NCBI RefSeq assembly: GCF_021390495.1
Contig: NZ_JAJEJP010000001.1
Coordinates: 3,782,001-3,846,000 of the forward strand
Direction of reading: 5' to 3'
From: Paraburkholderia sp. ZP32-5
GTDB lineage: Bacteria > Pseudomonadota > Gammaproteobacteria > Burkholderiales > Burkholderiaceae
DNA length: 64,000 nt
Shown here: one piece after another, positions 56,101 to 56,240 of the stretch
Layout: every line of letters starts with the position of its first letter
Numbering within the stretch: position 1 is the first letter of the stretch
The notes under the pieces: generated by a model
Database searches by the model: none
Told to the model about the DNA's origin: nothing
Seen by the model: only the letters and a program-made list of their open reading frames with translations
Position numbers and translations under genes: made by a program

Positions 56101-56206
56101 AAAAAAACCCGCCGCTTGAACGGCGGGTCAAACAGCCTAATCGAAAAAACGACAGGCACCCGCTCAGGGAGGAGAAGCGGGGAGGTCAGCGCCAAGCGCC
56201 TTGCTC
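56101..56206 (-). ncRNA. Candidate Spot 42/ErsA-position small RNA
   Basis: About 105 nt on the minus strand, between the plus-strand genes engB and hemB. In RNA order it has: (1) hairpin 56181-56159, a CCCGCU/AGCGGG stem with an 11-nt loop containing CUCCUCCC; (2) hairpin 56157-56135, GCCU/AGGC plus UCG/CGA, with a U6 loop; (3) terminator 56128-56107, an ACCCGCCG/CGGCGGGT stem followed by seven U. No ORF is credible within it. The terminator points away from both neighbouring genes' direction, so it needs a minus-strand transcript. Lying beside engB and convergent with it matches Spot 42 of E. coli; ErsA of Pseudomonas also lies beside engB. Homology is not shown, only position and architecture. 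The 5' end is estimated. Confidence 0.65.
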
Positions 56207-56210
56207 GATC

Positions 56211-56240
56211 GGTATGATATACCATTGTCTCGAAAAGTTT
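56211..56240 (-). promoter_or_regulatory. Candidate promoter of the small RNA, overlapping a GGTAT-N3-ATACC palindrome
   Basis: The palindrome GGTATGATATACC (56211-56223) could serve transcription in both directions, for the small RNA and hemB. On the minus strand AAACTT (56240-56235) and TCATA (56217-56213) are 17 bp apart, which resembles a sigmaE-type promoter with one mismatch in the -35. No sigma70 -35 fits the minus strand. Confidence 0.35.

Follow-up and report, generated by a model that had tools for sequence, protein, structure and literature searches.

An anti-hemB/ncS04-type small RNA beside engB in Paraburkholderia and its probable kinship with ErsA and sX13

The stretch of DNA analyzed here (the window) comprises 64,000 nucleotides of the Paraburkholderia sp. 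ZP32-5 genome. In the gap between engB, encoding the YihA GTPase (55361–56011, plus strand), and hemB (56299–57297, plus strand, with the putative start codon ATG at 56299), the minus strand contains a predicted 105-nt transcript of the anti-hemB/ncS04 type (56101–56205), which is convergent with the conserved landmark engB and divergent from hemB. In RNA order, the locus consists of a candidate promoter, a short 5' part, stem-loop 1, stem-loop 2 and a terminator. Stem-loop 1 (about 56159–56183, minus strand), recognized from the sequence, the alignment and the fold, exposes the anti-Shine-Dalgarno loop UUCUCCUCCCUGA. Stem-loop 2 (about 56135–56157, minus strand), recognized from the sequence, the fold and covariation, has a U6 loop in this genome. 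The intrinsic terminator (56101–56128, minus strand) is directed at engB and is composed of a hairpin at 56128–56107 and a U run reaching 56101. The RNA and the hemB coding region do not overlap.

Most of these elements had been proposed in the first-pass annotation: a terminator reading along the minus strand between two plus-strand genes, a U6-loop hairpin at about 56157–56135, a hairpin with an exposed loop at about 56181–56159 and a minus-strand small RNA of about 105 nt convergent with engB. The terminator and both hairpins were confirmed from the sequence, and the small RNA was recovered by an Rfam model (see below) with predicted ends, the 5' end (about 56205) being placed from the published 105-nt length of ncS04 together with the TCATA element. 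The minus-strand RNA forms three hairpins with the loop CUCCUCCC exposed, and in the folded 105-nt transcript UCCUCCCU is unpaired with a probability of 1.0. The z-score of the fold is −3.44, and one of 200 shuffled sequences folded at least as well (118 nt). Elsewhere in the window, the Rfam scan revealed a TPP riboswitch (RF00059) at 16873–16750 on the minus strand (65.5 bits). An inverted repeat, AAAAAACGGAGGCTAGACC/GGTCTAGCCTCCGTTTTTT, is located past hemB at 57345–57387 and is likely a bidirectional terminator.

When the whole window was scanned with Rfam models, the anti-hemB model RF02837 matched positions 56183–56099 with 83.3 bits (E = 4.1e-18), above its curated cut-off of 49.5, and the RNA lies between engB and hemB on the opposite strand, as is expected of anti-hemB. 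Judged by its sequence, the RNA as such is therefore already catalogued, as anti-hemB, RF02837 (Burkholderia RNA 7), which is the same as ncS04. Here and below, published sources are cited from their accessible parts. The ncS04 RNA of B. cenocepacia J2315 has been equated with anti-hemB (PMC5688073); it is 105 nt long, with its start determined by dRNA-seq and its 3' end by RACE, and a Northern panel is available (PMC5688073, PMC4603805). It lies between BCAL0264 and BCAL0265 in the orientation <- -> <- (PMC4603805); we take these two genes to be hemB and engB. Both papers (PMC5688073, PMC4603805) report co-purification of ncS04 with Hfq, credited to Ramos 2013, and no significant change of ncS04 was recorded in the listed qPCR conditions (PMC5688073). 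Anti-hemB is also listed in B. pseudomallei (PMC3521395). The accessible parts of PMC5688073, PMC4603805 and PMC3521395 name no target for anti-hemB/ncS04. An assignment of anti-hemB to ncS27 was rejected, as the table in PMC5688073 gives ncS04.

It could be argued that the hairpins merely serve engB, as its terminator or a 3' untranslated element, rather than forming an independent RNA, and the end of the RNA is indeed only 90 nt beyond the engB stop codon. However, the U run of the terminator is present on the minus strand only, the start site and the length of ncS04 have been mapped (PMC5688073, PMC4603805), and a promoter motif is conserved upstream of the RNA in its relatives. We consider this explanation scarcely credible.

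The first-pass annotation had also described a sigmaE-like promoter, AAACTT-N17-TCATA, with a palindrome at 56223–56211, and both were found in their places. This candidate sigmaE/ECF-type promoter (56211–56242, minus strand) includes GGAAACTTT at 56242–56234 and TCATA at 56217–56213, with the palindrome GGTATATCATACC covering the −10 element; a sigma-70 consensus scan of positions 55900–56500 revealed no promoter. For the relatives we used the strict pattern GAAC[TC]-N14..18-TCNNA (25 to 29 nt allowed), which we take to be the sigmaE/AlgU promoter consensus. It was present upstream of 40 of the 57 order members (L004 and L017 omitted; shuffle mean 0.8, maximum 4 in 200 rounds), 21 of the 35 gamma matches (shuffle mean 0.5, maximum 3) and all 24 Pseudomonas-type loci (23 of the 24 given loci plus L219; shuffle mean 0.46, maximum 2). 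Where found, the motif was 27 or 28 nt long, and it was 28 nt long in all Pseudomonas-type loci. Thus, a sigmaE-like motif is enriched upstream of the relatives, but the window and its nearest relatives have the variant GGAAACTT, TCATA, which is missed by the strict pattern, as are 17 of the 57 order loci. Because of this variant and the unchanged ncS04 levels in qPCR, an ancestral envelope-stress control of the sigmaE/AlgU type can only be inferred. The promoter type may have changed in the genus of the window, which would agree with the unchanged levels of ncS04.

We next consider the distribution of the RNA within the order, which we take to be Burkholderiales, the class being Gammaproteobacteria in the GTDB sense. 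Searches of many genomes were performed with stricter filters, and their counts refer to the matches listed. Among these, RF02837 was found at E ≤ 1e-3 in 299 of 399 order genomes and exceeded its cut-off in 245, while engB was matched in 397 of the 399. From the matches we picked 46 members, the window included, for an alignment (A1). The loop 1 sequence UCCCUG was invariant in all 46 rows. Both sides had changed in 11 of the 18 helix pairs (shuffle mean 4.7; none of 500 shuffles as high), including six of the seven pairs of stem-loop 2; the helices thus covary. A second C-rich motif, UCCCCUU(U), is found in the terminator loop of most of the 46 members. The UCCCC motif is absent from the terminator loop of the window and its nearest relatives, and loop 1 is the only C-rich loop of the window RNA.

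The arrangement of the neighboring genes was studied in two sets of order loci. Among the 29 best-scoring loci anchored by the RNA itself, 26 were convergent with engB, one was co-directional and two had no engB in the stretch. In the larger set of 58 matched loci, half of which were fetched by engB and which is hence biased (L004, a duplicate of the window, was omitted), the corresponding numbers were 47, nine and two. The RNA was divergent from hemB in 45 of the 47 convergent loci, while hemB was absent from the stretch in all nine co-directional ones. Among 40 order flanks fetched by engB, a match to the RNA was detected in 29 and none in 11. Since these 40 order flanks, like the 60 gamma flanks described below, were picked by engB, linkage counts in them are biased; the fair counts are the genome-wide count in the class and the 29 RNA-anchored loci. 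The RNA is therefore not universal, and its landmark is engB rather than hemB. It should be added that three small-genome relatives from the family of the window (L034, L035 and L036) had no match to the order-only model R1 (see below) in any stretch. A distance of about 50 nt separates the engB match from the hemB match in L034 and L035, and the RNA has apparently been lost at the engB place in all three.

These observations bear on the function suggested by the Rfam name, cis-antisense control of hemB. The divergent position of the RNA relative to hemB, in the window as in nearly all convergent order loci, would be in line with such control. However, the RNA does not reach the hemB coding region, hemB is absent beside the co-directional copies, and in the gamma flanks (see below) 22 of the 29 loci with a match included polA in the stretch, while hemB was found in none of the 60. 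Cis-antisense action on hemB is thus very improbable and was rejected, as hemB is no conserved neighbour.

To follow the RNA outside the order we used R1, a covariance model built from the 46 order-only rows, a kind of model that the first-pass annotation had suggested for Burkholderiales engB-hemB gaps; the E-values of all models built in this work are rough owing to short calibration. From the 120 engB places outside the order, 60 flanks were retrieved (one of them, L078, ends at 309 bases). At E ≤ 1e-3, R1 gave 35 matches in 29 of these 60 flanks, 33 convergent with engB and two co-directional. Genome-wide, 62 of 140 class genomes were matched at E ≤ 1e-3 and 78 were not (among the matches listed). 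After two order genomes were left out, the position of engB was established in 54 of the remaining 60 R1-matched genomes. In 46 of these 54 the best R1 match was located within 2 kb 3' of engB (44 convergent), and in eight it was away from engB; thus, the model built from Burkholderiales members lands beside engB in most matched genomes outside the order. The median distance to engB was 32 nt (all 47 linked genomes). Nearly all of stem-loop 1, CCCGCTTCCCTCCCTGAGCGGG, is common to several gamma members, and covariation extends through beta and gamma rows, in an alignment fitted to the structure. In one flank (L110, 629–1367, minus strand) we found four tandem anti-hemB-like copies 3' of engB, one scoring 48.3 bits with the sX13 model and another 37.1 bits with the ErsA model (cut-off 50 for each); tandem copies were also present in some other flanks.

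As a control we used RF02278, a model of another CU-rich small RNA. It matched 42 of 140 class genomes (among the matches listed), and none of its 44 hits in genomes with engB placed was within 2 kb of engB. Linkage to engB is therefore not a product of C-rich hairpins in general. As a separate observation, RF02278 is present in three copies over its cut-off in the genome of the window (G000; C1:4312564, C1:3566991 and C1:3905913) and, of the 138 class genomes outside the order, 40 have a match below the cut-off at E ≤ 1e-3 (among the matches listed); this so-called Betaproteobacteria toxic sRNA may, to judge by these matches, be wider than its name.

In a sample of the phylum, a further model (R3) matched 18 of 150 genomes at E ≤ 1e-3 (among the matches listed). 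Seven of the 18 belonged to a single family (f195) of another class, with weak matches and long CU-rich loops, two each in three of the seven genomes. The stretches of four f195 loci (L230, L231, L233 and L234) contained no engB, polA or hemB, and we make no claim of extension to other classes. It should be mentioned that the alphaproteobacterial ar14 and ar7 models weakly match gamma members (E = 0.0012 and up).

The first-pass annotation had regarded the RNA as a positional, perhaps functional, counterpart of ErsA. RF01719 (Pseudomon-1/ErsA) matched seven of 140 class genomes (among the matches listed). In six of the seven the match was within 840 nt of engB, and five of these six coincided with an R1 match; the seventh, strong and Pseudomonas-like, was beside polA in an assembly with engB on another contig. 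Thus, the proposal stands as regards position and overlap with R1, while no direct match of RF01719 to the window RNA was obtained (positions 55900–56500, E ≤ 10). RF02232 (sX13) was likewise without a match in this interval at that threshold. It matched 11 of 140 class genomes (among the matches listed), two strongly and nine below the cut-off. Both strong hits (G530 and G407) belong to one family and are located beside polA, away from engB; four of the nine weak hits overlap an R1 match, the other five none.

A second covariance model (R2) was built from 29 gamma-only rows. As these rows were picked as R1 matches, R2 is not independent, and its recovery of the RNA under study (E = 1.5e-6, against 0.021 for the next hit in the window) is partly circular. 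R2 also matched both sX13 loci (E = 8.8e-8 and 3.5e-7) and the polA-engB gap in all 24 Pseudomonas-type loci given, out of 80 fetched (E = 1.6e-5 to 1.5e-3), whereas R1 was weak on these loci (23 of 24; E = 0.0009–0.27). We conclude that ErsA and the window RNA are probably homologous.

An alternative is convergence: the gap 3' of engB may repeatedly gain unrelated small RNAs, whose C-rich loops and strong terminators then cross-match the models. The loops and terminators are indeed C-rich and of low complexity, the 5' part of ErsA differs by eye from stem-loop 1 of anti-hemB, and Spot 42 shares this place and orientation but no significant similarity. Convergence is at odds with the absence of the CU-rich control RF02278 from engB, with the nearly complete stem-loop 1 shared by several gamma members, with the promoter motif and its length being common to the relatives, and with the covariation through beta and gamma rows. 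We therefore regard it as unlikely.

Spot 42 had been named as another counterpart, and this proposal held for place and orientation only: spf of E. coli K-12 is placed and oriented like the window RNA with respect to engB/yihA, but the Spot 42 model RF00021 gave no match at the window locus. The same model was found in none of 140 class genomes among the matches listed, while its E. coli control was positive. R1 and R3 did not match the E. coli locus, and the best hit of R2 there, on spf, was not significant (E = 0.25). Homology with Spot 42 was rejected, since neither RF00021 nor R1, R2 or R3 gave anything significant, and Spot 42 is kept as a speculative branch.

Taken together, we think it likely that the window RNA is a trans-acting, probably Hfq-assisted ortholog of ncS04/anti-hemB, belonging to one beta/gamma family that is split in Rfam into anti-hemB, sX13 and Pseudomon-1/ErsA. 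The joint family is supported by the convergence of separately built models on the same genomic places (ErsA and sX13 hits overlapping R1 in five of six and four of nine cases). It can be hypothesized, with good likelihood, that anti-hemB, ErsA and sX13 descend from a single ancient small RNA of the beta/gamma ancestor, which arose next to engB with a sigmaE-type promoter and mimicked the anti-Shine-Dalgarno tail of 16S rRNA; Spot 42 may be an eroded branch at that place. Against the joint family we count (i) that RF01719 and RF02232 do not match the window directly, the link running via intermediates; (ii) that R1 is weak on Pseudomonas-type loci and R2 partly circular; (iii) the 78 of 140 genomes without R1, the eight of 54 with a best match away from engB and the 11 of 40 order flanks without a match; and (iv) that R3 reached only 18 of 150 genomes and five of nine weak sX13 hits lie off R1. 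Against the explanation as a whole we count the reported Hfq independence of sX13, the unchanged qPCR levels of ncS04 and the lack of a target named in the cited sources.

Transcription of the RNA would start at a promoter of its own opposite engB and stop at its own terminator, and the rigid hairpin of the RNA would present the loop CUCCUCCC, which we take to resemble the anti-Shine-Dalgarno tail of 16S rRNA. Pairing of this loop with ribosome-binding sites, already envisaged in the first-pass annotation, would concern GGAGG-rich sites in selected mRNAs and deny access to 30S subunits; translation of a set of mRNAs would be repressed, probably with Hfq. We infer target pairing by the window RNA from its probable homology to ErsA and sX13. 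The pairings predicted for the B. cenocepacia double-hairpin RNAs cluster around start codons (PMC5688073).

The RNA has been named after one neighbour in one genus. If it is indeed the same RNA as ErsA and sX13, functional results obtained in Pseudomonas and Xanthomonas could be put to the test in many beta- and gamma-proteobacteria, and a base-pairing RNA with a promoter of the envelope-stress type would prove to be widely conserved. The question raised in the sX13 paper, whether small RNAs are also present at polA loci of other bacteria, is a partial precedent for the grouping and would then be answered broadly yes. The grouping of anti-hemB, ErsA and sX13 was not found in print in a search largely confined to non-subscription literature, so its novelty is provisional; the only pairing among sX13, ErsA, anti-hemB and ncS04 found there was that of anti-hemB with ncS04 (PMC5688073). 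Rfam has no clan joining the three families.

Among known systems, anti-hemB/ncS04 is alike to the window RNA in sequence, structure, length (105 nt) and orientation pattern of the neighbors, and differs in nothing essential; the order-wide spread found here is not suggested by its Rfam name. The RF02278 RNAs (ncS03, ncS05, ncS27 and ncS62, with the related S17 in Bordetella) likewise have CU-rich loops predicted to act over ribosome-binding sites, but they differ from anti-hemB in their loci, in having two hairpins and in showing no engB linkage. Spot 42 is alike in place and orientation only, with no significant sequence match in either direction. According to a review (PMC8395346), ErsA has been identified as a functional orthologue of Spot 42. 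According to the sX13 paper, Spot 42 and the alphaproteobacterial ar7 RNAs are also located at polA, and ar7 has three stem-loops with C-rich motifs like sX13, without sequence similarity. The sX13 RNA, described in the same paper as Hfq-independent and exclusive to Xanthomonadaceae, has three stem-loops whose C-rich loops act on G-rich motifs; mutations of the loops and of the G-rich motifs abolish regulation of the tested targets. It resembles the family in being adjacent to polA and in being found by the gamma-only model R2, and has three C-rich loops versus one, loop 1, in the window RNA. ErsA of Pseudomonas is reported to be Hfq-dependent and controlled by AlgU (for AlgU, PMC8395346). It differs from anti-hemB in a longer 5' part and, by eye, in its first hairpin, but like the window RNA it is located 3' of engB and convergent with it, in the polA-engB gap, and it shares with the anti-hemB relatives the promoter motif of the sigmaE/AlgU type, the C-rich loops and the terminator ACCCCG...CGGGGU.
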